From: an uncultured Pseudomonadota bacterium
GTDB taxonomy: Bacteria > Myxococcota_A > UBA796 > GCA-2862545
Assembly (NCBI GenBank): GCA_913061235.1
Contig: CAJXTB010000003.1
Location: 310,001 to 374,000, forward strand
Reading direction: 5' to 3'
DNA length: 64,000 nt
Position 1 is the stretch's first letter. Every line of letters starts with the position of its first letter. Of this stretch, positions 2,908-17,601 are shown piece after piece. The notes under the pieces are model-generated. The model did no database searches. It had not been told where the DNA came from and saw nothing but the letters and a program-made list of their open reading frames with translations. The position numbers were made by a program, and so were the translations under genes.

Positions 2908-3954
2908 ATGATCTCGCTACTCATCATGCTCGCATCAGCCACGCCGGTCACCTTGAACTGGCAGGGGCGCTTGTTGAATACGGACGGCGTGCCTCTAGAC
3001 GGACCGCTGGATGTTGAGCTGGTGCTGTACCCAGATGCCGTGACCTCCACATCGTTCCACACCGAGACCGTTGACCCAGCAGACGTCAATGATGGGTTCA
3101 TCGCGGTGCGTCTCGGCGCCGACTCCAACAACCTGCTCCACAGCGAAGACCTCATGGGTGGCGCGTGGGTGCAGCTCAAAATCAACGACAATGACCTAGG
3201 GGGGCGGACGGAGCTACTCTCCGTTCCGTACGCGGCCGTCGCATCACAGTTGGATGGTCCGGCTCGCTTAACCGACACAAGCGCAACGTGCACGGGCACC
3301 ACAATCGGAACCTTGCGTTTCCGCAACGACACCTTTGAGGGGTGTACGAGCGCCGGCTGGCAGTCACTCGTCACCGCCAACAGCGCTGGCGACGTCACTG
3401 TCGGCGGTGCGCTCGGCGTCACCGGAAACGCCACAGTCGGCGGTACCCACGAGGTCACTGGCAACGCCACAGTCGGCGGAACGCACGAAGTCACCGGCAA
3501 CGCCACAGTCGGCGGAACGCACGAAGTCACCGGCAACGCCACGGTCGGCGGAACGCACGAAGTCACCGGCAACGCAACGGTCGGTGGAACGCATGGGGTC
3601 ACTGGCAACGCGAACGTCGCTGGCTCGCTCACTGTCGTTGGGGACCAAGTCGATGGTCGGTCGTACTACCAGAACTACAACATCAGCACAGCGGACTCAG
3701 CTGTGCTGCTGGCGTCCATGCCGTCAGCGTGGTCCGCTGTCGTGACCTGTTCGGTGACCGGCACCGGCGCCGGTGCAAGTTCGGTGTGGCTGCTCAAGCG
3801 TAGCTCGAGCATCTTCCTGGAGAAGATTGCCTCATTGAACAGCACCACGAGCAACACGCCACAGATCTACGCCGATGGTCTGGACTACCGAATCCGCTTG
3901 TACGACCACCCCAACAACTACAACGTTCGCTGTCATTTCCAAGAGATCATCTGA
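2908..3954 (+). CDS. Secreted protein with tandem 12-residue repeats
   Basis: 348 residues, starting at an ATG behind GGGGAGG. A short signal peptide (MISLLIMLASATP) is followed by a domain of about 110 residues with QGRLLNTDGVPLDGPLDVEL and LLSVPYAAVASQ. The same domain opens the protein at 15871. Residues about 171-238 are five full and one partial copies of a 12-residue unit, VTGNATVGGTHE, which would suit a beta-solenoid or trimeric fibre stalk. The C-terminal region of about 110 residues contains YYQNYNISTADSAVLL and has paired Cys. Probably an exported surface or appendage protein. Function unknown; this arrangement resembles tail-fibre or adhesin stalks, but no phage genes are nearby. 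Confidence 0.75.
   Translation: MISLLIMLASATPVTLNWQGRLLNTDGVPLDGPLDVELVLYPDAVTSTSFHTETVDPADVNDGFIAVRLGADSNNLLHSEDLMGGAWVQLKINDNDLGGRTELLSVPYAAVASQLDGPARLTDTSATCTGTTIGTLRFRNDTFEGCTSAGWQSLVTANSAGDVTVGGALGVTGNATVGGTHEVTGNATVGGTHEVTGNATVGGTHEVTGNATVGGTHEVTGNATVGGTHGVTGNANVAGSLTVVGDQVDGRSYYQNYNISTADSAVLLASMPSAWSAVVTCSVTGTGAGASSVWLLKRSSSIFLEKIASLNSTTSNTPQIYADGLDYRIRLYDHPNNYNVRCHFQEII
3418..3621 (+). repeat. 36-nt in-frame tandem repeat, five full copies plus one partial
   Basis: Units start at 3418, 3454, 3490, 3526 and 3562, with a partial sixth at 3598. Units 2, 3 and 4 differ from each other at only one or two positions, all synonymous, while the outer units have diverged more. The period of 36 nt equals 12 codons, so copy-number changes keep the reading frame. 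Confidence 0.95.
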
Positions 3955-4294: not shown

Positions 4295-4906
4295 GTGTCA
4301 TCTACCCCCTCCATTCTGTCCCACGTCACAGCCGCCAACAGCATCACGTCGACCGGCGCGCTGCTAGGTCTCGCTGCCGTCGCACTGACGCTGAACGGTC
4401 TGCACTCTGCCGCACTGACCTGCCTCATCGGTGCTGTCCTGTGCGACCGGCTGGATGGCATCGTGGCTCGTCGTCTTGGCCAGTCGTCCGACTTTGGCAT
4501 GCAGCTCGATAGCCTGGCAGATGCCGTCAGCTTCCTGGTCGCTCCCGCCGCTGTCGTCGTCATCTTGTCTTCTGCAAACCCGGTCGTAGCAGTGGCCTGT
4601 GCCGCCTTTGTGCTCGCTGGACTGTGGCGACTCGCACACTTCAACGTGCACGGAATGGACACGGGCGGGACCGAGTCCGTCTTCCGCGGCCTGCCCACAA
4701 CTATCGCCGGCTCAGGCTTTCTATTGGTGTGGGCTGGGCTTCGCCTGTCCCCAATTGCACCCCACGCAGACTGGTTGTTGGCTGGCTTTCTGCTCGCCAT
4801 GGCCCCGCTGATGCTGTCGACGATGCCCATCCGCAAAAACGGTTGGCTCATCAAGGCGCTGCAGATTCTCGCCCTGCCCACACTCATCGCCGCCTGGTGG
4901 GTCTGA
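4295..4906 (+). CDS. CDP-alcohol phosphatidyltransferase, PssA-like
   Basis: About 203 residues and six to seven hydrophobic segments. The complete family motif D-x2-D-G-x2-A-R-x8-G-x3-D-x3-D is present, beginning CDRLDGIVARRLGQ. These enzymes displace CMP from a CDP-activated lipid with an alcohol head group in the cytoplasmic membrane. The layout, with LAHFNVHG after the motif, is closest to phosphatidylserine synthase type II or archaetidylserine synthase, but the alcohol used cannot be read from the sequence. I chose the GTG at 4295 because the ATG at 4229 would add an unconserved Arg-rich leader. TATGCT ends 6 nt before this GTG, which suggests a leaderless transcript. First gene of an eight-protein lipid operon; the next gene starts 5 nt after its stop. 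Confidence 0.85.
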   Translation: MSSTPSILSHVTAANSITSTGALLGLAAVALTLNGLHSAALTCLIGAVLCDRLDGIVARRLGQSSDFGMQLDSLADAVSFLVAPAAVVVILSSANPVVAVACAAFVLAGLWRLAHFNVHGMDTGGTESVFRGLPTTIAGSGFLLVWAGLRLSPIAPHADWLLAGFLLAMAPLMLSTMPIRKNGWLIKALQILALPTLIAAWWV

Positions 4907-4911
4907 CGAGT

Positions 4912-5475
4912 ATGGCTCTGGACCCCTTCCGCATTGCGGTCTTTCTAAGTCTGTCCATGACATCTGCGGGTGTGGCTCAGGTGCTGTGGCTGCGCACGTC
5001 CCTGTCGAAGCGACTGGTGCAGCCGGTCGACTTTGGGCTCACACTACGCGGACGACGGCTGTTCGGCGCCAACAAGACCTTTCGGGGTTTTGCGGTCATG
5101 GTGCCTGCATCGGGACTCGCTTTCCTTGTCTGGTCGCGCCTGTTTGCGACGGGCTTGTGGGACCTGTCTGTGCTCGGGTGGCTTGGACTGGGACTCATTG
5201 CCGGACTCGGCTTCATGCTCGGTGAGCTGCCCAACTCCTTCCTCAAGCGACAGGCCGACGTCGCTCCAGGCGATGCACCGAAGGGCACAGCCCTAGCGTG
5301 GCTCTCGCTGGTTCTCGACCGGACGGACTCGCTGCTGGGCTCGCTCTTCCTCATCTGGCTTGTAGTGCCGCTGCCGCTTGTGGCCTGGGTCGCATGCCTG
5401 GTTGTGGGCGTTGGCGTACACGCATTCTTCAGCTGGCTCTTGTACAAGACCGGCGTCAAGCGGAGAGCCGGATGA
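4912..5475 (+). CDS. CDP-archaeol synthase (CarS/DUF46)-like membrane enzyme
   Basis: 187 residues, about five membrane helices. It has the family's landmarks: LFGANKTFRGF near residue 50, and a later cytoplasmic segment with GELPNSFLKRQ, GDAP and LDRTDSLLGSL. In archaeal CarS and its bacterial relatives this segment carries the CTP/Mg site, and the enzyme makes a CDP-activated lipid from a phosphatidic-acid-like phospholipid. It therefore likely provides the CDP-lipid used by the phosphatidyltransferase just upstream. The ATG at 4912 lies 5 nt after the previous stop, and its own stop overlaps the next ATG. A CdsA-type synthase is the alternative, but the LFGANKTFRG pattern favours the CarS/DUF46 group. 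Confidence 0.75.
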   Translation: MALDPFRIAVFLSLSMTSAGVAQVLWLRTSLSKRLVQPVDFGLTLRGRRLFGANKTFRGFAVMVPASGLAFLVWSRLFATGLWDLSVLGWLGLGLIAGLGFMLGELPNSFLKRQADVAPGDAPKGTALAWLSLVLDRTDSLLGSLFLIWLVVPLPLVAWVACLVVGVGVHAFFSWLLYKTGVKRRAG

Positions 5476-8096
5476 GCCTCGTTTCCTTGATCAACGCCCA
5501 TAATGCAGCAGAAATGGGCGGAAAAGCAGCGTCGCTGTCGCGTATGGCTGCGGCGGGCATTCGGGTACCTTCCGGTTTTGTGCTTCCGGCCTCGCTGTTC
5601 GACGGGTTTGTCCAGAGTAGCGGACGCTCACAGGACATCCAGACCCTCCGCAGAGACGTAGACGCCTCGGACCCCGTCGCCGTGGCCGATGCCTCTGCAC
5701 AGATTCACTCCTGGCTCGTACAGACACCGCTCTCGGAAGCCGTCAGAACGTCACTGACTGCACACTACAGCGCCCTAGACGCCGCCCAGGTCGTGGTTCG
5801 CAGCTCGGCCATTGGCGAAGACTCGGTCAGCGCCTCCTTCGCCGGACAGCTCGACAGCTTTCTCGACACCACCAACGCACAGGCGCTGGCGGAGAACGTT
5901 CGCCGGTGCTGGGCCTCGCTGTTCTCGGCCCGCTGCCTCGCCTACCAGCAGGCCACGGGCACCACACTGCAACGCATGGGTGTGCTGGTCCAACCTCAGA
6001 TTCCCGGCGCCATCTCCGGAGTAGCCTTCACGGTATCACCGCTTGATCAAAGCCAATTACTCATTGAGTACGTAGAGGGAGGCTGCGAACAGCTCGTCTC
6101 AGGCGAGGTGACCCCGCACAGCCTAGCGGTCCCCCGCGATGGAAAACTCCCCAGGAAGAAGCGCCCCCTTCTGTCTGCCGCACAAGCCCGGGAGCTGGTG
6201 ACCACGCTGCACCGCCTCGAAGACCTGTTCGGCGGACCGCAAGATGTGGAGTGGACCTTCGACCCCAACGGCGTGCTGTACATCCTGCAGTCTCGGCCCA
6301 TCACCACAGCTTCTGCGGCGCTCCCCACAGCTTCCAAGCCAAGCGCGCCGTCCGGCGACACCCTGTCCGAGACCGCCGTCTTCTCGAACGCGAACATCAA
6401 CGAGAACTACCCCGACCCCGTCACCCCGCTTCTCCAGTCCATCGCCCGCACCAGCTACCGGCACTACTTTCGCAACATCGCCGTTGCCTACGGGTTCTCC
6501 GACCGCCGTGTGCAAGCCATGGACAGCTCGCTCGAACACATCGTCGGCGTACACGCTCAGCGCCTGTACTACGACGTGAGCAACATCCACGCGGTGATGC
6601 GCATGGCCCCAATGGGCGACATGTTCGCCCGCTGGTTCAACGGCTTCGTTGGCGTACAAGCCACGACCGACGCACGCGAGCGCGACCTGACCTGGAGACG
6701 AGGAACGGTGGGACGACGAGCGCAAGCCCGGGAGATGGTCACGATTGCCCGCTCTGTCGTTCACCAGTACCGCACGCTCACCGACCAGGTGAAGCAGTTC
6801 GAGGCCACCGTTGCCGACTTTGCAGCGCGCACTCACCCGAGAAATCTGGTGGACTTCACCACCAACGACCTGCTGAACGCCTTCGCCGAGTTCATGGACA
6901 TCCGCACCAACCGCTGGGTCGGCGCGGGTCTGGCGGACGGAGCGTGCATGGTCTGCTGCGGTGCCCTGGAAGCCTTCCTTGACCGGCACTTCGACGAGCC
7001 TGGCCCGGTGCTGCTGCACGGCCTTCTGCGTGGCCTGCCGGACATTGTCAGCAGCGAGCCACCACGTCATCTATGGCGTCTGTCCAGGCTCATTCGCGCC
7101 GACCCTCACCTGACTGAGCTGTTCGCCACAGACACCTCCGACGTGCTCACCGAGCTGGGCTGGGACGGCCGCCAGCTGACCGGCTCGGATCCGTTCGCCG
7201 CCACACTTCAGACCTGGCTGGAGGACTGGGGCTTCCGCTGCACCGGCGAGCTGATGTTCCGCGTTGACAGCTTTCAAGAGGAACCGGGTGCGGTCATCGA
7301 CATGCTGCGCTCGTACGCCGGTATGGGCGGAGAAGGTCCCGACGAGGTCATCGCTCGCCAAGGACAAGCACGCCTCGACCAGACCGAGCAGCTGGCAGCC
7401 CGGTTGTCGGCGCCACGCCGTGTTGTCTTCCGTCAGCTGGTGCGCGCTACCGGCGGCTCCCTGTCTCTTCGCGAGCGGGCCCGACTCAAGCAAGCCCTTC
7501 TGTACCGTCGCAGTCGACGCGTGGTGCTGACCTTGGGTGAGCGACTTCATGACGCGGGACACGTCGAACACCCAGACGACGCGCTGTACATGCACTGGCA
7601 AGAGCTTCTGACGCTACGAGACGGCTACAACCCGCCCAGACACGCCATCGCCGCACGTCGCCGTGCCTTTGAGGCCGAGAGCCAGTGGCCGCCTCCTCCG
7701 CCACGCATCATCCTGCCGCGCAACCAAGGCTGGAGACCGCCAACAGACGCCGTCGTACAGCCGCTACCCGAAGGCGACGAGCTTACTGGACTCGCAGCCG
7801 CCGGAGGTGTCGTGACCGCCAGAGCAACCGTCGCTCGGGGCCAAGCCGACTTTCATCTCGTCAATGCCGGAGACGTTCTCGTCGCACCTCAGACCGACCC
7901 CGGCTGGGCGACGGTGCTGTTCTTGGTCAAAGGCCTGGTCATGGAGCGCGGCGGCATGCTCTCGCACGGCGCCATCATTGCGCGCGAGTTCGGCATTCCA
8001 TCGGTTGTGGCGGTAGACCGTGCCACCGAGCGCATCCCACAGCACGGACAAGTGACGGTGGACGGAGACACAGGCCATGTCCGAATCGGCCGCTAG
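5472..8096 (+). CDS. Dikinase-type (PEP synthase/rifampin phosphotransferase-like) enzyme without the pyruvate barrel
   Basis: 874 residues from an ATG that overlaps the previous stop, with GGAGA upstream. Residues 1-300 form the ATP-grasp domain of PEP synthases: MGGKAASLSRM near the start, VVVRSSAIGEDSVSASFAGQ near residue 105 and YILQSRPIT near 280. The last 90 residues form the swivelling phospho-His domain, RGGMLSHGAIIAREFGIP, with the acceptor at His832. The protein ends soon after, so the C-terminal TIM barrel that binds pyruvate in true PEP synthase is missing. In between lie about 480 residues of mostly helical sequence, as in rifampin phosphotransferases (about 865 residues), which pass the beta-phosphate of ATP to an alcohol. 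In this operon a lipid alcohol is a reasonable guess for the acceptor. Confidence 0.8.
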   Translation: MSLVSLINAHNAAEMGGKAASLSRMAAAGIRVPSGFVLPASLFDGFVQSSGRSQDIQTLRRDVDASDPVAVADASAQIHSWLVQTPLSEAVRTSLTAHYSALDAAQVVVRSSAIGEDSVSASFAGQLDSFLDTTNAQALAENVRRCWASLFSARCLAYQQATGTTLQRMGVLVQPQIPGAISGVAFTVSPLDQSQLLIEYVEGGCEQLVSGEVTPHSLAVPRDGKLPRKKRPLLSAAQARELVTTLHRLEDLFGGPQDVEWTFDPNGVLYILQSRPITTASAALPTASKPSAPSGDTLSETAVFSNANINENYPDPVTPLLQSIARTSYRHYFRNIAVAYGFSDRRVQAMDSSLEHIVGVHAQRLYYDVSNIHAVMRMAPMGDMFARWFNGFVGVQATTDARERDLTWRRGTVGRRAQAREMVTIARSVVHQYRTLTDQVKQFEATVADFAARTHPRNLVDFTTNDLLNAFAEFMDIRTNRWVGAGLADGACMVCCGALEAFLDRHFDEPGPVLLHGLLRGLPDIVSSEPPRHLWRLSRLIRADPHLTELFATDTSDVLTELGWDGRQLTGSDPFAATLQTWLEDWGFRCTGELMFRVDSFQEEPGAVIDMLRSYAGMGGEGPDEVIARQGQARLDQTEQLAARLSAPRRVVFRQLVRATGGSLSLRERARLKQALLYRRSRRVVLTLGERLHDAGHVEHPDDALYMHWQELLTLRDGYNPPRHAIAARRRAFEAESQWPPPPPRIILPRNQGWRPPTDAVVQPLPEGDELTGLAAAGGVVTARATVARGQADFHLVNAGDVLVAPQTDPGWATVLFLVKGLVMERGGMLSHGAIIAREFGIPSVVAVDRATERIPQHGQVTVDGDTGHVRIGR

Positions 8097-8853
8097 TACG
8101 CTCACAACACTGCGGGTGTGGCGTCGTCAGCGGTTTCAGCACGCCCTGTTTGTGCCAGGCGCCGCTGTCTTGACGTTGGCCAGCGCAGTCGGAACGAGCC
8201 CGCCCACCGTCGTTGAAGCGGTCGTCGCTGGAGTGACGGCATGGCTGCTCTTGGGTGGATTCCGTCTAGAAGACGACCTCGTCGACCGTGTGGCCGACGC
8301 CGTCGACCACCCTGAGCGAGTCCTCACACGCCTGTCCGACGCGCGCGCCTTGGGGTCCGTTGTCGCCGTCGTCGTGCTCACCGGAGCACTGTTGGTAGCC
8401 TGGCTGTCCGGCCCTCTCGCTGGCGCAATCGTCGTACTGCTGGCCGGCTTTTTGTGGCTCGTCGCCAAGGCTCGGTCCGTGCTGGGCGGCTCGGCAGAGG
8501 CTCTCGTTTTACTGAAGTACCCGGTGCTCATCGCGGTTCTCGCAAACCGCCTGGACATCATCGTGCTCACCGTCATGCTCTTGATGTACGGCGTGATGTG
8601 CGTCGACGAGGCCGCAGACAGGCCCTCCTTCCGACCGCTCGCCGCTACAACCTGCCTAGCGAGCGCATCAGCCCTGCTGTACCTGCTCTGGCCCAGCGCC
8701 CTGCCCTTCACCGCAGTTCAGCTCGCTCTCGTCGCTGCAGTCTGCATCGGTCTCTGGCGGACATTTTCCGGCCCGAACACGCCGTGGGTGCGCATCGGGT
8801 GGATGGTCTGGGTTGTGATACAGCTGCTCAACTTCGACCTAGGACACTCATGA
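8077..8853 (+). CDS. UbiA-like membrane prenyltransferase
   Basis: 258 residues with about eight hydrophobic segments. A cytoplasmic loop holds the Asp-rich cluster LEDDLVDRVADAVDHPERVL, the variant first motif found in some UbiA-family proteins. A weaker second acidic motif, CVDEAADRP, follows helix five. UbiA enzymes transfer an isoprenyl chain to an aromatic ring or to a glycerol-phosphate ether lipid; the acceptor here cannot be deduced. The ATG lies inside the end of the upstream gene (20-nt overlap), and its stop overlaps the next ATG, so translation is probably coupled. It could instead be an inactive or re-purposed family member, since motif two is not canonical. Confidence 0.65.
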   Translation: MSESAASTLTTLRVWRRQRFQHALFVPGAAVLTLASAVGTSPPTVVEAVVAGVTAWLLLGGFRLEDDLVDRVADAVDHPERVLTRLSDARALGSVVAVVVLTGALLVAWLSGPLAGAIVVLLAGFLWLVAKARSVLGGSAEALVLLKYPVLIAVLANRLDIIVLTVMLLMYGVMCVDEAADRPSFRPLAATTCLASASALLYLLWPSALPFTAVQLALVAAVCIGLWRTFSGPNTPWVRIGWMVWVVIQLLNFDLGHS

Positions 8854-9848
8854 GTGCTGCGCCCCCATTGCCCGTTCATGACCCGAGCACGGCCCCGCCC
8901 TTTGAGTTGTTCGAGGACGTCGCCTGCATTCTGTGCGGAAGCGAGTCCCGCGAGCCGGTGGTCACAGCCCAAGAAGACCTCACGGGCAAGCCCGGCGACT
9001 TCACCTTCGTCCGATGCCTGGATTGTTCCCTGGTCTACCAGCACCCGCGCCTCCCCATTCATCACATTGGCGCCTACTACGACGACGAGTACATCGCGCA
9101 CCGCAAGAGCCAGTCTTGGGGCAAGCTCACCGGTTTCTTCGAGTGGCTGATGGGCAAGCTCGACCGGGACAAGACCGAGATCTGCCAGCGCTACGTGGAC
9201 ATTGGCCCGGAGACGAAGGTGTTGGACGTCGGCTGCGGCGCTGGCGGCTTCCTCGCCCACCTGCACGAGACACGAAAGGCTGTAGGCACTGGCGTAGACT
9301 TCAAAGATTTGTCCCAGCAAATTGGCGAGTTCGGCGGCGGTGCCATCGACTTTCTACACGGCACGCTCACACCAGAGCTTCTCGGCGACAAGCGCTTCGA
9401 TCTGGTCAGCATGTGGCACTTCCTCGAGCACGACTACGACCCGCTCGGCTCCCTCGCTGTTGCCCGCGATGCCCTGAACGACGGCGGTCGACTCGTCATT
9501 GAAGTGCCACGCTTGGACAGCCTCACAGCCAAGCTGTACGGGCGCCGCTGGCCAGGCTGGCAGGCCCCACAGCACACGGTCGCCCTGGACAAGGCGTGCC
9601 TGTTGCGCATGGTGGAACAAGCGGGTCTTGAGGTCGTCGACTACCTGCCGTATGGCGCCTACCCCGGCTATTTCTACGTGTATGCGGGCGCAGCCTTCGT
9701 GCTCAAGCGCGGCCGCGGTCTGGACTTACGACGCGCCATTGTGTCGTACCTCGCAGGCCAGATTGCGCTGACACCGGTGATGCTCTTCGAGCGCAAGCTG
9801 AACCTGTCCATGCAGGTGGTGGTGTGCAAGCGTCCAGGGTCGGCCTGA
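8850..9848 (+). CDS. SAM-dependent class I methyltransferase with an N-terminal zinc-ribbon-like segment
   Basis: 332 residues from an ATGA overlap; in-frame codons upstream belong to the shadow of the previous gene. Residues about 25-50 carry CILCGSE and CLDCS, a likely Zn-binding pair of knuckles. The Rossmann methyltransferase core follows: motif I VLDVGCGAGGFLAHL at about residue 125, then HFLEHDYDP after motif II, and LVIEVPRLDS. The order knuckles, then YYDDEYIAH, then core matches Methyltransf_11/23-type enzymes of polysaccharide and lipid clusters. The last 60 residues are hydrophobic and Arg-rich, so membrane association is likely. Substrate unknown; a lipid head group or chain intermediate fits the operon. 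Confidence 0.85.
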   Translation: MSAAPPLPVHDPSTAPPFELFEDVACILCGSESREPVVTAQEDLTGKPGDFTFVRCLDCSLVYQHPRLPIHHIGAYYDDEYIAHRKSQSWGKLTGFFEWLMGKLDRDKTEICQRYVDIGPETKVLDVGCGAGGFLAHLHETRKAVGTGVDFKDLSQQIGEFGGGAIDFLHGTLTPELLGDKRFDLVSMWHFLEHDYDPLGSLAVARDALNDGGRLVIEVPRLDSLTAKLYGRRWPGWQAPQHTVALDKACLLRMVEQAGLEVVDYLPYGAYPGYFYVYAGAAFVLKRGRGLDLRRAIVSYLAGQIALTPVMLFERKLNLSMQVVVCKRPGSA

Positions 9849-10579
9849 TGCGAGACGCGCTGCGTAGCGCCAAGGTGTTTGTCGGTGGGCAAGCGATTCT
9901 CACGGTGAGTGCGGCAGCCATGACGGCCGTTCGTGCCGTGCGGCCGAACAGTGGACGACGCATCAGTCAGCAGACCATCGGTGCCTGGGCAGGACGCGCG
10001 CTGCTGCGTCTCAACCGGGTGGAACTGCGCGGGGAGCACGACGCCCCCTGGCCGACAGGACCGTGCTTCTTTATGGCGAACCACTCGTCTTCACTCGACC
10101 TGCCAGTGCTGATGGCCTTGGGGCTGCCCAACTCACGCACCTTCATCAAAGAGCGCTTTCGCTGGTATGGCTCACTCGGTGCGGTGCTCTGGCTGACCGG
10201 AACCTTCTTCACGGCACCGCAAGAAGAGCACGAGCGCCGCGTTCAGCGGTTCGCAGAGGCCACCGAGACCCTTCGCAGGACCGGAGAGTCCGTCTTCGGC
10301 AGTCCAGAGGGCATGCGCGTTGTGGGCCATGAAATCGGCCCGTTCAACAAGGGTGTCTTCCACATCGTCACCGCGCTGAAGCTGCCGATAGTGCCCCTAC
10401 TGATTGAGATTCCCCCAGACGTGGACCCCGGCACCGGCATTGCCGCAGGCCCAGGGACTGTGACGGTTCATGTGGGCACGACCATCGACACCTCTACGTG
10501 GACATTGCACGACCTAGACGCCAACACTCAGGCCGTGCGCGAGCGCTTTGTTGCCTGGAATGCAGAGATTCGCGCATGA
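9848..10579 (+). CDS. PlsC-family 1-acyl-glycerol-phosphate-type acyltransferase
   Basis: 243 residues from an ATG that overlaps the methyltransferase stop; an ATG at 9824 would add eight residues but breaks the overlap pattern of the operon. The catalytic H-x4-D is in ANHSSSLDLPVL. The second block is TFIKERFRW, the third FGSPEGMR and the fourth LPIVPLLIE, so all acyltransferase blocks are present. The N-terminus has one amphipathic/hydrophobic segment. The enzyme should move an acyl chain from acyl-ACP or acyl-CoA to a hydroxyl of a glycerophosphate-like acceptor at the inner membrane. It comes just before the gene encoding an acyl-AMP ligase and ACP, a possible source of acyl groups. Confidence 0.88.
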   Translation: MRDALRSAKVFVGGQAILTVSAAAMTAVRAVRPNSGRRISQQTIGAWAGRALLRLNRVELRGEHDAPWPTGPCFFMANHSSSLDLPVLMALGLPNSRTFIKERFRWYGSLGAVLWLTGTFFTAPQEEHERRVQRFAEATETLRRTGESVFGSPEGMRVVGHEIGPFNKGVFHIVTALKLPIVPLLIEIPPDVDPGTGIAAGPGTVTVHVGTTIDTSTWTLHDLDANTQAVRERFVAWNAEIRA

Positions 10580-13311
10580 AGAACGACTGGCCCTTCGCCC
10601 CATGCCCCACCGTGGCCGCTGCCACGCGCATTGTCGATGTCTTGGCCATGCGCGCGAACACGTCACCGGACCAGGTTGGCTACACCTACCTGACTCGGGG
10701 TGAGCCAGAGCAACTCACCTACGGTGCCCTATTTGACGACGTCTTGCGTGCTGCCGCTCGCATTCGCGAACACGTGCCACCGGGTGGCCGAGCGCTGCTC
10801 TTGTACGGCTCCGGCCTCGACTTCATCCGGGCCTTTCTCGGCTGTCATGCTGCCGGTGTGGTTCCGATTCCCGTCATGCCACCCCGCGATGCAACCCCGT
10901 CAGAGCTCAGCCGAGTGGCCGGAATCTTTGAAGACGCCGACACACCGCTGGTCATCACCAGGTCGCAGATAGCACAGCTCGGTCAAGGATTCTTTACCGG
11001 TGGCCAAGCCAAGGTCTGGCTCACTCTAGACACCCTGCACACAACCGAGCCCGCCTCACTCATGGCCGCATCACAGGCCAGCGACCTCGCACTTATCCAG
11101 TACACATCCGGCTCCACGTCCACACCGCGCGGCGTCGTTGTGGGCCACGACAACCTGATTCGCAACCTCGCCTACATCTACTGGGCCGAGCGCAATGGTC
11201 CAGAGACGGTCTCGGTCTCTTGGCTGCCCATGTCGCACGACATGGGGCTTATCGAGGGCGTTCTCCAGCCGCTCTACTCAGGCCATCCCACCTTCTTGAT
11301 GTCTCCGCTGGCCTTCCTCAAGCAGCCGCTACGCTGGCTACAGACCATCTCGGATGTCGGTGCTACGGTCTCCGGCGGACCGAACTTCGCCTACGATTTG
11401 GTGTTGCGACGCCTAGGAACGGGTTCCCTGCCCGAGCTGGACCTCAGCCGCTGGCAGTTTGCGTACAATGCGTCGGAACCGGTTCGTCCCGAGACCATCG
11501 AAGCCTTCCATGCGCGCTTGGCCCCGGTGGGTTTCGCGCGGACAGCCATGCAGCCGCTGTACGGGTTGGCCGAGGCGACAGTCGGCGTGACGGCCGGTCG
11601 CGTTGGACAATCCGCACGCACACAGACTCGCGTGACCGCTACTGGCGAACGCACACTGGTGTCCTGCGGCGTCAAACCCGATGACATGGACCTCATTGTT
11701 GTAGACCCGGACACACATCGACCACTCGCACCCGGCGAAGAAGGCGAGATCTGGCTCAACGGCCCTTGTGTCACCCGCGGCTATTGGAGGCGCCCAGAGG
11801 CCACAGAGGCAGTGTTCGGCGCAACTGTACCCGGCGACGACACACGCTACCTGCGCACCGGCGACCTCGGCTTTGTGCTGGACGACGAGCTCTTCATCAG
11901 CGGCCGCATCAAAGAGCTCATTGTGTCGCGCGGCCAGAACATCTACCCGACCGACATTGAGCACACCGTAGAAGGGTCGCACCCCTTCCTGCGCCCCGGT
12001 GGCTCAGCGGCGTTCTGTGTGGACGGAGCCGAAGAGAGTGCCGGCATTGTGGCCGAGCTCAACCGCGCTGTAGCGGCTGACCTCCCCTCCATCACGGACC
12101 TGCAAGCAGCGGCCCGAGCTGTCCGTCAAGCGGTTGTGCGGGCGCATGGTGTCAACGTGAGCTCCGTCGCTCTGGTCGCACCCGGCACGATTCCACGAAC
12201 CACCAGCGGCAAGCGCCAGCGAACGAAGGTTGGCAAGCAGTGGCAGCGAGGTCAGATCACGGCGCTTGCGACAAGCGGTCAAGCGGAGATCACGTCGGGC
12301 GACTCCCTCGCTCAGTGGCTTCCCGAGCGCATCGCAGCCCTGTTGGGGATCGACAGATCGGAACTCGACACCGCGCGTACGCTGCCCGAGCTGGGACTAG
12401 ATTCTGCGCGGTCCCTGGAGCTTCTGGCCGAGGCTGAAGCCCGATTTGGACACCTGTCCATCGCCGCACTTCTAGGATTGTCCATCGACGCCCTGCTGGA
12501 CAGCGTTGAGACCACGGCCACGGGCACACCTTGGCTCGATGACGCGGTCCTGCCATCGGACATCCTCGTGGGCTCACCTCCCAGAAACGCTGGCACAACG
12601 CTGCTCATTACCGGTGCAACGGGGTTCTTGGGACGGCACATCGTTGCTGAGCACCTGACCAACTCACTGGCCACCGTGCGCTGCTTGGTCCGCGGCGAAC
12701 ACGGTCAGTCCCGCGTAGTAGACGCCCTGAAGAGCCTGCCGAGCTGGCGTCCTGACTGGGCCGAACGCCTAGAGGTTGTTCAGGCAGACTTGAGCGCTGA
12801 CGACCTGGGTCTCCATGCCCCGAACTCTCTGCTAGACGACGTCTCAGCCATCATTCACTGCGCTGCCATGGTGAACTGGGTCTACCCGTACCGTGCCTTG
12901 GCTCCCACCAACGTCGGCGGCACACTCGCCTTGATTCGCCTGGCAAGTGTGGCTGCAACCCCGTTCATCTACCTGTCGTCGATGGCCTGTTGCTGGTCGC
13001 TGACAGCGGGCGAGACGGTCGACGAAGACACCGACCCAGTGGACCACATTTCCGGCATCCACCTGGACTACGTGCGAACAAAAGCGGTCGCGGAGTCTCT
13101 AGTGCGGCAGGCCCAGCAACGCGGCCTTCCCGCGTCCATTGTGCCCCCGGCCTTATCTTCTCGAACGCCGAGACCGCCCAACATGTCCCCGGCGACTTCT
13201 TGGCTACGCTCTTCCGAGGCTGCATCGAGATGGGGGCCGCCCCCGACTTGGACTGGTCGCTGGACGTTTGTACTGTCGACGAAGTGGCTCGGGCCACGCT
13301 CGATTGCCTAG
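10576..13311 (+). CDS. Fatty acyl-AMP ligase, carrier protein and thioester reductase (5' part of a frameshifted gene)
   Basis: It starts at an ATG overlapping the PlsC stop. Residues about 1-560 are an adenylating domain of the FAAL type: YTSGSTSTPRGVVVGH near residue 175, WLPMSHDMGLI, and YLRTGDLGF near 430. FAALs activate fatty acids as acyl-AMP and load them on a carrier. The carrier domain follows with ELGLDSARSLEL; Ser610 would hold the phosphopantetheine. A thioester reductase begins with LLITGATGFLGRHI at residue 676 and has the catalytic Y832-x3-K836 (DYVRTK). The reductase would release the acyl chain as an aldehyde or alcohol using NAD(P)H. At 13144-13148 (five C) the frame breaks: from about residue 857 the protein is nonsense to the stop at 13311, while the sensible sequence continues in the -1 frame. 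Confidence 0.88.
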   Translation: MKNDWPFAPCPTVAAATRIVDVLAMRANTSPDQVGYTYLTRGEPEQLTYGALFDDVLRAAARIREHVPPGGRALLLYGSGLDFIRAFLGCHAAGVVPIPVMPPRDATPSELSRVAGIFEDADTPLVITRSQIAQLGQGFFTGGQAKVWLTLDTLHTTEPASLMAASQASDLALIQYTSGSTSTPRGVVVGHDNLIRNLAYIYWAERNGPETVSVSWLPMSHDMGLIEGVLQPLYSGHPTFLMSPLAFLKQPLRWLQTISDVGATVSGGPNFAYDLVLRRLGTGSLPELDLSRWQFAYNASEPVRPETIEAFHARLAPVGFARTAMQPLYGLAEATVGVTAGRVGQSARTQTRVTATGERTLVSCGVKPDDMDLIVVDPDTHRPLAPGEEGEIWLNGPCVTRGYWRRPEATEAVFGATVPGDDTRYLRTGDLGFVLDDELFISGRIKELIVSRGQNIYPTDIEHTVEGSHPFLRPGGSAAFCVDGAEESAGIVAELNRAVAADLPSITDLQAAARAVRQAVVRAHGVNVSSVALVAPGTIPRTTSGKRQRTKVGKQWQRGQITALATSGQAEITSGDSLAQWLPERIAALLGIDRSELDTARTLPELGLDSARSLELLAEAEARFGHLSIAALLGLSIDALLDSVETTATGTPWLDDAVLPSDILVGSPPRNAGTTLLITGATGFLGRHIVAEHLTNSLATVRCLVRGEHGQSRVVDALKSLPSWRPDWAERLEVVQADLSADDLGLHAPNSLLDDVSAIIHCAAMVNWVYPYRALAPTNVGGTLALIRLASVAATPFIYLSSMACCWSLTAGETVDEDTDPVDHISGIHLDYVRTKAVAESLVRQAQQRGLPASIVPPALSSRTPRPPNMSPATSWLRSSEAASRWGPPPTWTGRWTFVLSTKWLGPRSIA

Positions 13312-14807
13312 ATAAACCCCAGCCAACGCTGCACCTCGAAGCGGTCGACCGTAGACCGTGGCGTGCAGCGGTCCTGTGGATGACCCTTCGCGGCCACGCC
13401 ATGGACCTGCTGCCCTACAACGGGTGGCTGACCCGCCTTCGTGCCCACGCCGAGCAACCCGGCGCCGCGCTGAGGCCGCTGCGGACCTTCTTTGCACGCC
13501 CCGTAGACGGACTCGCTGGCCTCCACCTGCCCGAGCTGTACGAAGAGCCGCGCCGCAACACCATCGACAGCACGCGCTCCAACGCCATCCGACGCACGCC
13601 CGTGCCGCTGAACGCCGACCTGCTCGAGCGAACCTTCCGCCACCTCACAGCCACCGGCTACCTGCCGGCTGCTGACCAACCCGTGCCGTCCACGACACAC
13701 CTACCCGCTGACGCCGTCCGCACCGCACTCGGCTCAGTCCGCAGCGTCACCCCTGTGGGCTGGGGCACTTCCAAAACGGAGGTCCGACACAGCATCATTG
13801 GTGAGCTTGCCGCCTGGCGTTTCGGCACTGCGGCGGGACTCAGCCGGCACCGTGTGGAGATGGACAGCGGTCAGACCCGTACGGTCGTCGCCAAGGCTCA
13901 AGTTCCTGACACCGCCTCACTCGACATTGCCCAGACCGTCGCCGGACTGTGCAGCGACGCTCTCGGTCGCGCGTGGACAGAGCACCGGCATCGCTCCGAA
14001 GTTGTCGGCAGCGCACAGCGCGAGCGGGGCTTGTATGTCGTGGAACAAAGCGCCCTTCGCGACCACTCTCCCGCTCTGCTCGGCACCGCGCCAGGCGTGC
14101 TTGTGCTCGAAGACATCTCGGACCTCCCCCTGCTCAACCGCGCCAATGACCCGACCGCCTGGACCCCGTCGGACATCCAGTCCGCCATAGACGGCATTGC
14201 CCAGATTCACGCAATGGGCCTGCGCGAACCCCTCGCTGTCGACGGCCTCACTGCACGTCGGACCACCGAAGACCTCGTTGATCAGGAGTCCTTGTGGCAC
14301 GCTCTGTCTGAGTTCGCCCTGGGACGCGCCTTTGGACGCTGGGCCGGCCCCTCGGGTCGCGCACGAATCGAGACGCTCGTGTCCGACGTCGCCGCCTGGC
14401 ATGCCCCGGCTGACGCCCTACCCCGCACTCTCATCCACAATGACTTCAGCCCGCGAAACGCCGCTCTGCGCGCCGACGGACGCCTGTGTGCCTACGACTG
14501 GGAGCTCGCCCGAATGGGCCTGCCGCAGCGCGACTTGGCCGAGTTTCTGTGCTTCACCCTCGCACCCGACGACACCACGTCACTCGCCGGCATGCTCGCA
14601 CACCATCGCCACGCCCTACAGCGCGCCAGCGGCCAACCCATAGACATCGACGACTGGCATCAAGGCTTCGCAACCGCCTTGGCCGAGCTCATGGTCACCC
14701 GACTTGCCATGTACGCAATGATCGACGCCTTCCGTCCACAACCCTTCCTCGAACGGGTTGTACGCACATGGTGCGCGCTCGACCGGCAGGTGCATGGACA
14801 CGCCTAA
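13146..14807 (+). CDS. End of the thioester reductase fused to an APH-type kinase domain (3' part of the frameshifted gene)
   Basis: This frame picks up exactly where the upstream one fails. PGLIFSNAETAQHVPGDF completes the reductase substrate-binding region, which continues through DVCTVDEVARATLDCLD. After a linker, residues of the aminoglycoside-phosphotransferase fold appear: LVLEDISDLP, then the Brenner loop LIHNDFSPRNAAL and the metal-binding AYDWELARMG. Kinases of this group phosphorylate small hydroxylated molecules such as choline, homoserine or antibiotics. Joined to the upstream part the product would be about 1,410 residues, FAAL-ACP-TR-kinase. No start codon with a ribosome site is visible near 13146, so separate translation is doubtful. 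The frame overlaps the desaturase start by 14 nt. Confidence 0.8.
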   Translation, partial: PGLIFSNAETAQHVPGDFLATLFRGCIEMGAAPDLDWSLDVCTVDEVARATLDCLDKPQPTLHLEAVDRRPWRAAVLWMTLRGHAMDLLPYNGWLTRLRAHAEQPGAALRPLRTFFARPVDGLAGLHLPELYEEPRRNTIDSTRSNAIRRTPVPLNADLLERTFRHLTATGYLPAADQPVPSTTHLPADAVRTALGSVRSVTPVGWGTSKTEVRHSIIGELAAWRFGTAAGLSRHRVEMDSGQTRTVVAKAQVPDTASLDIAQTVAGLCSDALGRAWTEHRHRSEVVGSAQRERGLYVVEQSALRDHSPALLGTAPGVLVLEDISDLPLLNRANDPTAWTPSDIQSAIDGIAQIHAMGLREPLAVDGLTARRTTEDLVDQESLWHALSEFALGRAFGRWAGPSGRARIETLVSDVAAWHAPADALPRTLIHNDFSPRNAALRADGRLCAYDWELARMGLPQRDLAEFLCFTLAPDDTTSLAGMLAHHRHALQRASGQPIDIDDWHQGFATALAELMVTRLAMYAMIDAFRPQPFLERVVRTWCALDRQVHGHA

Positions 14808-15777
14808 GAATTCCCCGCCTTCCGCCGCAGACGTTGCCCATCTCAAGGCCACGGACACCACTGGGGCGCTGTTCACCGCACTGTGTCTGGGATTGACCGG
14901 CAGCGCGATTGCCCTCACTCAAGCGCGGCTCTTCGTACCCGGGGTACTTGGTTGGACGCTGTGGACAGTCGGCCAGCTCGCGCTCGCCATCGCCTTGCTT
15001 CAGTGGTTCGTGCTGCTGCACGAGTGCGGCCATGGCGTGCTCTTCCGCCGCCGCTCACTCAACCGAGTCGTAGGCCATATCGCTGGGTTCTTCAGCACCA
15101 TTCCCTTCTCGGCCTGGGCTCCCGTTCACTTCCTGCACCACAAGTGGACCGGCTGGCAGGACGTCGACCCAACGACGCAGTCCCTCGTGCCGCGTGAACT
15201 CAAGGGCGGCGAGCGCTGGCTGATGAACCTGTGCTGGAAGCGTTGGATCCCGGCCTTCTCCGTCATCTACCGTGTGTCCAACTTCTGGAACCTGCCTCGG
15301 CTACGCACCTTGCTATCGCCCGCAAAGGCACGCCACATCGGCGTCAACGCCCTGGTTCTCGCAGCGCTGTACCTGGTCATTGGGGTCGTGGTGGGCCCAG
15401 TGAATCTGGCGCTGGCCATTGCACCGGGCGTCATGCTGTCGCTGATGATGCTCGAGCCCATCATGATGAGCCAGCACACACACGTGCCGCTTCAGCTGTC
15501 TAACGGCGAGCCTGTCAACGCTATCGGTGCCCGCGACCAAGCCGTCTTCACCCGCTCCCTGCGCTTCCCTCGCTGGTTCTCGGCCGCCATTCTGCTGCAC
15601 TTCGACGCCCATGAGCTGCACCACATGTACCCGTACGTGCCCGGCTACCGACTCGGCGCCATTGACTACGACCCGGGCAACAGTTTTCACTGGTGGACGT
15701 GGATTGCCCGCGTGCGTCGCATGCCCGCAAACGTCTTCCTGTTCAGCAACCGCAACGACACAGGGGTCGACGTCTAG
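14794..15777 (+). CDS. Membrane fatty acid desaturase
   Basis: 327 residues; the ATG at 14794 has an AGG upstream and lies inside the kinase-domain gene, fitting the operon's coupled layout. The three His boxes of the di-iron desaturase/hydroxylase family are complete: HECGH at about residue 80, HFLHH at about 115 and HELHH at about 275. Two pairs of membrane helices separate them. Such enzymes insert a double bond or hydroxyl into an acyl chain in the membrane, using O2. Last gene of the lipid operon; it probably modifies chains used by the acyltransferase or the FAAL enzyme. An alkane hydroxylase or carotenoid-type oxygenase is possible because the box pattern is shared. Confidence 0.85.
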   Translation: MDTPKNSPPSAADVAHLKATDTTGALFTALCLGLTGSAIALTQARLFVPGVLGWTLWTVGQLALAIALLQWFVLLHECGHGVLFRRRSLNRVVGHIAGFFSTIPFSAWAPVHFLHHKWTGWQDVDPTTQSLVPRELKGGERWLMNLCWKRWIPAFSVIYRVSNFWNLPRLRTLLSPAKARHIGVNALVLAALYLVIGVVVGPVNLALAIAPGVMLSLMMLEPIMMSQHTHVPLQLSNGEPVNAIGARDQAVFTRSLRFPRWFSAAILLHFDAHELHHMYPYVPGYRLGAIDYDPGNSFHWWTWIARVRRMPANVFLFSNRNDTGVDV

Positions 15778-15870
15778 GTTGGGGAAACGCATAGAATGCC
15801 GGACTCAGTGGTAGACTGCCCCCGAGCGTACGGCCGTCGACATTCAGACCGGTTCACCCTCGGAGACCCC

Positions 15871-16962
15871 ATGCGATCTGTCGCACTCATCGCACTCGCT
15901 CTCATTCCAGCGTTGGCGTCCGCCACCCCAACCACAGTGGCCCAACAAGGACGTTTACTCGATGCCAATGGGACCCCGCTGCAGGGGCAGCATGACATTC
16001 AATTCCGTTTGTGGGACCTCTCCGAGTCCGCGCAGATCTGGACCGAGACCCACACGCTGCTGCTAAGCGACGGCTATTACAGCACCGTTCTCGGCAACTC
16101 CAGCGCCATCGACTCCACGGTTCTGGATGATGACGACATTGAGCTCGGCTTTGAGATCGACAGCACCGGCGAGCTCGCCACACGTCAACGCTTGAACAGC
16201 GTGCCCTTCGCAGTCGTCGCACACAGCGTTGCAGGAGGCCCGGTTGTCGCCAGCGAAGTGAGCGTGGGAGGGGTAGTCGCTATCGCATCCGACGGAACGG
16301 TTCGCGACACCTTGCAGACCCTCACCTGCGCAGACGACCAAGTCGCCGCATGGGACGCAGCGGGGTCCGCATGGACGTGCACGACCACGGCAGACGCAGA
16401 CACCCTAGCCGCACTCTCCTGCGCAGACGATCAGGTCGCCGCATGGGACGCCACCGGGTCCACCTGGACCTGCACAACCACCACAGACGCAGACACCCTA
16501 GACGAACTGTCATGCACCAACGGCCAAGTCGCCTCGTGGAACAGTAGCGCCGGAGCCTGGAGCTGTACGGGCGTCGTGCCGACTGTGGGCTCTGGCATGC
16601 ACGAGCTGGCCATCGGCGGAAGCACCACGCTCAACACCACTTTTTCGCATGACATCTACACGTGCGGCGGAAGTCATGTGGTGCATGTAGAGGCGGCCAT
16701 GACGCACTGGACAACGGCCTACCGAACCGCCGTGGACAAGATTTTCTACATGGACTCCTACCTGACCCTGAGCGCCGACACCATCCTGGAGAACAGCACA
16801 GCAAACGCCGGTAGCTGGTCCTTCGAGCGTGTGGTGACCGGCAACACTGTCAATGGGGACACCAGTAATCGGCTGCGCATCACCCACAACGCAGGCTCGT
16901 ACCATGGCGGAGCTCAATACTATATTTTCGTGCGGTCTACCTGTCCCACCTACGAGATGTAA
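15871..16962 (+). CDS. Secreted protein with 31-residue CADDQ repeats, paralogue of the protein at 2908
   Basis: I chose the ATG at 15871, since GGAGA lies 4 nt upstream and it gives a clean signal peptide (MRSVALIALALIPALASA); an ATG at 15796 would add 25 basic residues. About 363 residues. The first 110 mature residues (QQGRLLDANGTPLQGQHDI to LNSVPFAVVAHS) match the N-terminal domain of the protein at 2908. Then come three copies of a 31-residue unit built on LSCADDQVAAWDATGSTWTC, each with two Cys. The C-terminal domain of about 125 residues has further Cys. Probably an exported surface or fibre protein of the same family. The two paralogues flank the lipid operon. Confidence 0.72.
   Translation: MRSVALIALALIPALASATPTTVAQQGRLLDANGTPLQGQHDIQFRLWDLSESAQIWTETHTLLLSDGYYSTVLGNSSAIDSTVLDDDDIELGFEIDSTGELATRQRLNSVPFAVVAHSVAGGPVVASEVSVGGVVAIASDGTVRDTLQTLTCADDQVAAWDAAGSAWTCTTTADADTLAALSCADDQVAAWDATGSTWTCTTTTDADTLDELSCTNGQVASWNSSAGAWSCTGVVPTVGSGMHELAIGGSTTLNTTFSHDIYTCGGSHVVHVEAAMTHWTTAYRTAVDKIFYMDSYLTLSADTILENSTANAGSWSFERVVTGNTVNGDTSNRLRITHNAGSYHGGAQYYIFVRSTCPTYEM
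16321..16570 (+). repeat. 93-nt in-frame tandem repeat, three copies
   Basis: Units begin at 16321, 16414 and 16507. Units 1 and 2 are nearly identical; unit 3 has diverged and is incomplete. Each encodes 31 residues with paired Cys and ends in an Asp-Ala-Asp-Thr-Leu stretch. Confidence 0.9.
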
Positions 16963-17269: not shown

Positions 17270-17346
17270 CGTGGGATGGAGCAGCCAGGTAGCTCGCCGG
17301 TCTCATAAGCCGGAGGTCGGGGGTTCAAATCCCTCTCCCGCAACCA
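17270..17346 (+). tRNA. Initiator tRNA-fMet (CAT), copy 1
   Basis: 77 nt with encoded CCA. The acceptor stem is CGTGGGA/TCCCGCA, in which position 1 is C and 72 is A: the unpaired C1xA72 is the classic mark of bacterial initiator tRNA. The D arm GGAGCAGCCAGGTAGCTC and the loop CTCATAA are also typical. In the anticodon stem the pairs are G29-C41, G30-C40 and U31-G39, so the usual third G-C pair of initiators is a wobble here. The T stem is GGGGG/CCCTC with a G50-U64 wobble. Confidence 0.96.
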
Positions 17347-17524: not shown

Positions 17525-17601
17525 CGTGGGATGGAGCAGCCAGGTAGCTCGCCGGTCTCATAAGCCGGAGGTCGGCGGTTCAAATCCGTCTCCCGCAACC
17601 A
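17525..17601 (+). tRNA. Initiator tRNA-fMet (CAT), copy 2
   Basis: Same 77-nt gene with encoded CCA and the C1xA72 mismatch. It differs from copy 1 only at T-stem positions 51 and 63, where G-C has become C-G, so pairing is kept by a compensatory double change. It is followed by its own copy of the UUCG terminator. Confidence 0.96.

Follow-up and report, generated by a model that had tools for sequence, protein, structure and literature searches.

What is made by the tight run of eight genes, all on the plus strand, that occupies positions 4295-15777 of the window studied here? The window is the whole stretch of 64,000 nucleotides G000:C3:310001-374000 (contig CAJXTB010000003.1, GenBank assembly GCA_913061235.1), taken from a bacterial genome of 7.2 Mb in 72 contigs, and the coordinates given for this locus are window positions. 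The original prediction, made from the DNA letters, was that these genes encode a pathway, so far undescribed, that makes a polar lipid or modifies lipids and yields a reduced chain. This is still the best-supported reading, given that the genes occur and evolve together in many phyla. A lipid pathway is very likely, and a chain derived from a fatty alcohol is likely. Our preferred reading, with a probability of about 0.4, is that the cluster makes a phospholipid carrying a chain that stems from a fatty alcohol and is attached, probably, through an ether bond, in parallel to archaeal lipid synthesis and from unrelated precursors.

The question is of general interest given that the enzymes for bacterial alkyl-ether lipids are only partly known (PlsA/Ger, ElbD, AGPS). 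According to a survey, other ways of making ether lipids may be in use in some planctomycetes (PMC11868695). The cluster is real and conserved, and it is apparently undescribed, since no account of the pathway or of the gene set was found in the open-access literature, subscription papers and preprints lying outside the search.

Composition of the cluster

Every domain named in the original prediction was located. The features are as follows, with the labels used in this text in brackets:

4295..4906, plus strand: CDP-alcohol phosphatidyltransferase (Pss), PssA/archaetidylserine-synthase-like, GTG start; PF01066 (CDP-OH_P_transf), 64 bits
4912..5475, plus strand: CarS-like CTP:lipid-phosphate cytidylyltransferase (CarS); PF01864, 43 bits, cut-off 22
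5472..8096, plus strand: three-domain PEP-synthase/rifampin-phosphotransferase-like dikinase (PPDK); PPDK_N 205 bits, PEP-utilizers 80 bits
8077..8853, plus strand: probable UbiA-superfamily membrane transferase, DGGGP-synthase-like (UbiA); profile match and predicted fold
8850..9848, plus strand: class I S-adenosylmethionine (SAM) methyltransferase (MT) with N-terminal Cys pairs, zinc-ribbon-like; Methyltransf_23
9848..10579, plus strand: PlsC-type acyltransferase (PlsC); PF01553 58 bits, AGP_acyltrn 55 bits
10576..13147, plus strand: FAAL, acyl carrier domain (ACP) and N-terminal part of the thioester reductase (TR); AMP-binding 194 bits, PP-binding, NAD_binding_4 138 bits
13138..13148, plus strand: frameshift inside TR; tblastn of an intact homologue of 1404 residues (locus L033) changes frame here
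13146..14807, plus strand: C-terminal TR part and APH-fold alcohol kinase (APH); Thioester-redct and APH matches
14794..15777, plus strand: membrane fatty-acid desaturase/hydroxylase (DES; FA_desaturase); PF00487, 86 bits

Pss and CarS are separated by a 5-nt gap; ATGA overlaps are found at CarS/PPDK, UbiA/MT and PlsC/FAAL, and the remaining overlaps comprise 1 nt (MT/PlsC), 20 nt (PPDK/UbiA) and 14 nt (APH/DES). The original prediction had taken FAAL-ACP-reductase-kinase as one open frame, and this does not hold for the source genome, where a 1-base frameshift splits it near 13138-13148. The open reading frame (ORF) 10576-13311, in frame 1, stops within the reductase; the remainder of this domain and the kinase follow in frame 0 up to 14807, while the L033 homologue is a single intact ORF. 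The break looks like one missing base, and therefore the gene is broken in the source genome or the assembly is in error at this place.

The Pss-like protein matches the NCBIfam models for pssA (87 bits) and archaetidylserine synthase (78 bits), both under cut-off. CarS matches the model for CDP-2,3-bis-(O-geranylgeranyl)-sn-glycerol synthase (E=4.6e-15, below the equivalog cut-off), and its motifs FGxNK, ELPNSxxKR and DxxDS are present in at least 85% of 47 relatives. The dikinase, whose relatives in the PDB include 5fbs/5hv1, retains the phospho-His motif G828-M-L-S-H832-G-A-I-I-A-R. The FAAL gene also matches FAAL subfamily models and a DIP2-like domain; the best matches of its AMP-binding domain are FAAL models and a large model of polyketide synthases/nonribosomal peptide synthetases (PKS/NRPS) that has such a domain at its start; none of these matches reaches the curated cut-off. 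The His boxes of the desaturase are kept (H76-E-x-x-H80, H112-x-x-H115-H116, H228-x-H230 and H273-E-x-H276-H277).

Conservation across phyla

Retrieval with a CarS profile and gene neighbourhoods was run over 379 genomes of the source phylum. It recovered the cluster in G094 and in four Polyangium-like genomes, as well as contig-limited parts in G028, where a Pss-like orthologue adjoins CarS, and in G170. The MT profile scores in the same genomes are bimodal, with seven at 607-633 bits and the rest at no more than 178 bits, and all seven high-scoring genomes possess the CarS cluster. G170 is the sole genome with a CarS-PPDK-UbiA part and no MT, and its contig ends within the cluster.

When 84,980 species genomes were scanned with the MT alignment, 80 loci were retrieved; the scan relied on two short peptide patterns, hence the carrier list is a lower bound. 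The carriers belong to Planctomycetota, Acidobacteriota, Gemmatimonadota, Pseudomonadota, Verrucomicrobiota, Myxococcota, Bacteroidota and Bdellovibrionota, and one further carrier is an unclassified Deltaproteobacteria metagenome-assembled genome (MAG). The majority are MAGs; the isolates are Polyangium fumosum, Massilia glaciei, Polaribacter filamentus, Aestuariivivens and Botryobacter ruber. A variant form of the cluster is present in Bacteroidota and Bdellovibrionota, and the order is largely the same in the other six phyla. Co-occurrence of the genes had been named beforehand as the decisive point for the prediction, and the cluster does recur, for the most part intact, in at least eight phyla. 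The neighbourhood search proposed for Myxococcota likewise recovered it there, where it is rare, but its spread is cross-phylum and not myxobacterial.

Gene counts given from here on refer to the 42 loci with complete neighbourhoods. MT is present in 42 of them, PPDK in 41, CarS in 40, DES in 38, PlsC in 37 and APH in 33; a UbiA-like gene was detected by BLAST in 33, and an ORF with the RxxDD motif in 7 of the remaining loci. MT is the best conserved gene, with 43-75% identity between phyla; distant MTs that stand without the cluster (L114-L121, 25-31% identity) were set aside. In a mirror-tree analysis, the pairwise distances of CarS, PPDK, DES and UbiA were correlated with r values of 0.74-0.89, and of 0.50-0.62 with PlsC; none of 500 permutations gave values as high, from which it follows that these genes have been inherited together. 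The cluster would be anciently shared or mobile among bacteria. Since Polyangium is placed differently in the MT and PPDK trees, no direction of transfer is claimed.

These results bear on the simplest alternative, namely that ordinary lipid genes or housekeeping duplicates lie together by chance. All the genes do come from common families, but the cross-phylum order, the co-evolution and the bimodal MT scores rule it out, and the probability left to it is negligible. The suspicion that the members are housekeeping copies was not borne out either, given that, apart from the cluster, the source genome has a housekeeping CdsA of the ordinary type and four more genes for CDP-alcohol phosphatidyltransferases.

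Clustering of all the ORFs of related loci added hardly anything to the known set except shadow ORFs, either antisense or out of frame; no prenyl synthase, no PKS/NRPS modules and no dedicated exporter were detected among the recurrent genes. The latter two absences weigh on the view that the product is a secreted or surface lipid-like natural product, for which the PEP-synthase-like enzyme would act as a PigC/RedH-type ligase that condenses an aldehyde. PPDK does match RedH/PigC models, FAAL and TR domains are common in natural-product clusters and the distribution is patchy; nevertheless, PPDK fits PEP synthase models better and CarS, Pss and PlsC are phospholipid enzymes, so that we consider this view very unlikely.

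Sporadic neighbours, i.e., a P450 in L102/L103 and an extra desaturase in L088/L084, were left out of the gene set. The cytochrome P450 lies immediately upstream of PPDK in two Bdellovibrionota variants (L102:2847-4220 and L103:2891-4198). Several planctomycete desaturase ORFs have 600-750 residues (L050:4060-5970; also L048, L071, L074 and L054); that of L050 is a confirmed PlsC-desaturase fusion, and the other four were judged by ORF length alone.

The reductase-kinase module

The reductase fused to the kinase is of two types: TR-APH was found in 20 loci and a fusion of an HMG-CoA-reductase-like domain with APH (HMGR-APH) in 13, none having both and nine having neither. TR-APH with FAAL-ACP upstream or fused occurs in Myxococcota, Acidobacteriota, Gemmatimonadota, Verrucomicrobiota, part of Planctomycetota and Propionivibrio, and TR-APH without FAAL in other Pseudomonadota. 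HMGR-APH (PF00368, 312-327 bits) is present in most Bacteroidota, several Bdellovibrionota loci and one planctomycete MAG. The reductase type tracks the MT tree, with 5 changes for the three states versus 26.0 by shuffling.

The APH domains form one family in which K87, HxDxxxxN and DWE are invariant or nearly so (38 sequences); the AlphaFold2 (AF2) model has a predicted local distance difference test (pLDDT) score of 92.8, and its fold resembles alcohol kinases, e.g., choline, homoserine and steroid kinases. The nearest NCBIfam context of TR includes MxcG, whose reductase releases an alcohol. The HMGR-like domain, far under the NCBIfam equivalog cut-off, retains the catalytic Glu, Lys (DKK), Asp (GQD) and His in all 13 sequences. 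The position equivalent to S684 of the human enzyme is D/E in 13 of 13, and K735 is retained in two and lost in 11. Both human residues bind the HMG carboxylate; these changes make HMG an unlikely substrate and favour an acyl chain without a distal carboxylate, and the domain seems to have switched substrate. A role of this domain as a mevalonate supplier was considered and is disfavoured by the changes in the substrate pocket and by the exchange with TR. As two unrelated thioester reductases stand before one kinase, the joint step would lead from an acyl thioester to a primary alcohol and its phosphate, and it is strongly inferred that the module converts an acyl thioester to an alcohol and then to a phospho-alcohol.

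The UbiA-like enzyme

The UbiA-like gene has no Pfam match and a weak NCBIfam prenyltransferase match (E=0.001). It has the motif FRLxDDLxDxxxDRxxHPxR, and residues R19, R63, D67, D74, K147 and P149 are invariant in 44 sequences. When a profile of these 44 relatives was compared with the whole PDB, the sole match was the archaeal DGGGP synthase 6m31 (E=0.0012), of which the stretch NVINDIFDIEIDRINKPSR aligns with FRLwDDLaDrerDrkehPeR, the first Asp-rich motif (N/D)DxxDxxxD being in register. The top Foldseek matches of the AF2 model (pLDDT 87.7) were the DGGGP synthase structures 6m31 (E=1.1e-4) and 7bpu (2.8e-4), and with VIA-align the model gave Z values of 12-14.8 for UbiA enzymes and of at most 11.6 for prenyl synthases. 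The predicted fold and the first Asp motif indicate that the protein probably belongs to the UbiA superfamily, and the profile match and the fold back the identity that had been claimed for this gene. UbiA enzymes normally transfer allylic prenyl groups. DGGGP synthase makes the second ether bond of archaeal lipids (PMC4244643); by likeness of fold and motif, the bacterial enzyme may also form an ether bond.

The same enzyme families could serve an alkyl-phosphate route that does not lead to an ether, where CarS would make a CDP-alkyl, or the UbiA-like enzyme would act as in decaprenylphosphoryl-ribose synthesis. The product would be an alkyl phosphodiester lipid or an alkylphosphoryl sugar, decorated by PlsC, the desaturase and MT. 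The membrane phosphoribosyltransferase 8j8j is likewise among the fold matches of the UbiA-like protein (Z 12.5), and in G020 CarS, PPDK and Pss stand together without UbiA, suggesting a sub-module of kinase, CDP-activation and transfer. However, DGGGP synthase is the closer match to the UbiA-like protein, and PlsC and CarS together indicate an intermediate similar to phosphatidic acid; this route is therefore held to be unlikely.

Proposed pathway

According to the ether-phospholipid reading, FAAL would load a fatty acid onto the fused carrier domain, and lineages without FAAL would use acyl-CoA or acyl-ACP; TR, or the HMG-CoA-reductase-like domain in Bacteroidota and Bdellovibrionota, would reduce the acyl thioester to an alcohol, and the fused APH kinase would yield the alkyl phosphate. 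The steps as far as the alkyl phosphate are well supported. The PEP-synthase-like dikinase might then add a second phosphate, or phosphorylate another intermediate. In an engineered isopentenol utilisation pathway an alcohol is phosphorylated twice by choline kinase and a second kinase (PMC9571491), and choline kinase shares the broad fold of APH. The UbiA-like enzyme would move the alkyl, perhaps 2-alkenyl, group onto glycerophosphate to give an ether, PlsC would acylate the free position, CarS would form the CDP-lipid, and the head group would be added by the Pss-like or a housekeeping enzyme. The methyltransferase would modify the head group or the chain. Because enzymes of the UbiA type normally require an allylic diphosphate, C2-C3 may be where the desaturase acts; this is a guess, as are the roles given here to the dikinase and the methyltransferase; the prediction of a phospholipid product is of moderate strength.

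Several points weigh against this reading. Pss is linked in about a quarter of the loci (11/42), the cluster has no gene for a glycerophosphate acceptor, and MT, its most conserved gene, has no firm role in the model. Likeness to UbiA in fold and motif does not establish function: other UbiA enzymes have equal Z values within error (4od4 14.8, 7bpu 14.1), and the second Asp motif DxxxD is mostly E/DxxxD in the alignment and degenerate in several rows. A saturated alkyl diphosphate would be a chemically poor UbiA donor, and the allylic desaturation that would remedy this is conjectural. Finally, the Rhodopirellula-type loci have no more than DES (in L050 as a fusion with a PlsC domain), CarS, PPDK, UbiA and MT, and neither TR-APH nor HMGR-APH was found anywhere in the genomes of these carriers, some of which have elsewhere a reductase-like ORF of about 500 residues without a kinase match. 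The alcohol module is thus not obligatory, or it is replaced by unrelated substitutes; from these loci, the core would be CarS-PPDK-UbiA-MT-DES-PlsC, and the alcohol may have another source.

A radical SAM protein with an HMPTM zinc ribbon (Tes-like) adjoins the Rhodopirellula/Rubripirellula clusters on the minus strand (L050:105-1691, L048:242-1867 and L054:1-303), and a PlsC and a protein of about 250 residues lie in between. It was not counted as a member of the pathway, being present only in three close relatives.

The Rhodopirellula-type loci would suit an isoprenoid hybrid, in which UbiA uses a housekeeping prenyl diphosphate to give a prenyl-ether/acyl glycerophospholipid and the reductase-APH module recycles prenol or makes mevalonate-type intermediates. 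UbiA chemistry is established with allylic prenyl diphosphates, the HMGR-like domain would find a place, and choline kinase with a second kinase yields prenyl diphosphates in engineered cells (PMC9571491). On the other side stand the FAAL-type activation of fatty acids in many lineages, the altered HMG-carboxylate-binding positions, the lack of a prenyl synthase among the recurrent genes and of a detected GGGP synthase in the source genome, and the hybrid appears quite unlikely.

In its most complete form, the ether-phospholipid reading amounts to a new route, in at least eight phyla, in which doubly phosphorylated fatty alcohols (alkyl or 2-alkenyl diphosphates) would be coupled by UbiA to glycerophosphate, independently of PlsA/Ger, ElbD and AGPS, the HMGR fold having been recruited in Bacteroidota and Bdellovibrionota. 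In this full form the proposal is rather doubtful. Nonetheless, an ordered cross-phylum cluster of this size, in which fatty-acid enzymes stand beside lipid enzymes of the archaeal type, offers a concrete candidate for genetic tests. If an ether lipid is indeed the product, this would narrow the 'lipid divide' on the side of the bacteria and provide new genes to serve as markers of lipids in the environment; even with another lipid product, a conserved uncharacterised pathway in culturable carriers and an HMGR-like domain that seems to be substrate-switched are new and can be checked.

Genome background and neighbouring genes

Archaeal CarS uses unsaturated archaetidic acid and CdsA takes phosphatidic acid (PMC4244643). 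With a housekeeping CdsA present in the source genome, CarS is an addition, as expected if its lipid-phosphate is not ordinary phosphatidic acid. MT weakly matches phosphoethanolamine methyltransferases, over the common SAM domain only. GGGP synthase (PF01884, PcrB-like) was not found in the source genome, and control genomes match; the same applies to DUF2229 (PF09989), which we take to be associated with PlsA/Ger (4 controls match), and to IspH/LytB (PF02401; ten controls match), the last result implying that isoprenoids are probably made there via the mevalonate pathway. The search for PF10520 (Lipid_desat; CarF/PEDS1 desaturase) gave no match in the source genome nor in any control genome.

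In members of the source family, divergent CarS-like and Pss-like genes were seen beside RND/MMPL exporters (L014, G020:C18:58001-78000, and L015, G005:C44), which may represent a second pathway, likewise undescribed, for a lipid or for export. The divergent relative in G020, near an RND transporter, combines CarS and Pss with PPDK and FAAL but lacks both UbiA and MT, which indicates that related pathways exist.

The operon is flanked by two secreted-looking proteins, one on each side (window 2908-3954 and 15796-16962), that share an N-terminal 'QGRLLxxxGxPLxG'; the first additionally has about five near-identical VTGNATVGGTHE repeats. Two tRNA-Met(CAT) genes lie downstream of the operon (17270-17346 and 17525-17601).

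Comparison with known systems

The archaeal ether pathway (GGGP synthase, DGGGP synthase/UbiA, CarS and archaetidylserine synthase; PMC4244643) shares with the cluster a UbiA transferase with matching Asp motif, a CarS-like and a Pss/ArsS-like enzyme. It differs in its GGGP synthase, not found in the source genome, and in that no prenyl synthase is among the recurrent genes; the cluster has, in addition, fatty-acid activation and reduction, two kinase-type enzymes, PlsC, a desaturase and MT.

The bacterial ether-lipid routes that have been named are ElbD, Ger/PlsA and AGPS (PMC11868695). The myxobacterial elb operon encodes ElbD as a single FAR-ACS-ACP-AGPAT protein (PMC9131029), which has in common with the cluster the functions of acyl activation, carrier domain, reductase and PlsC/AGPAT-type acyltransferase, as well as the occurrence in Myxococcota. 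The cluster, in contrast, has the order FAAL-ACP-TR-APH, a separate PlsC, and CarS, UbiA, dikinase, MT and desaturase besides; a myxobacteria-specific ElbD-like locus is ruled out by this domain order and by the taxonomic spread. With PlsA/Ger (PMC11868695) the product class, a bacterial non-isoprenoid ether lipid, may be common, but the enzyme logic differs, as PlsA/Ger converts a preformed ester and DUF2229 was not found in the source genome.

The dikinase shares the ATP-grasp, the central substrate domain and the mobile phospho-His domain with rifampin phosphotransferase, PigC/RedH and PEP synthase; it is, however, far under the curated cut-offs of every named member and is linked to lipid genes. 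Likewise, the HMGR-like domain of the variant clusters shares the fold and four catalytic residues with class I HMG-CoA reductase, and differs from it in the fusion to APH, in the change of S684 to D/E and in the loss of K735 in most sequences.

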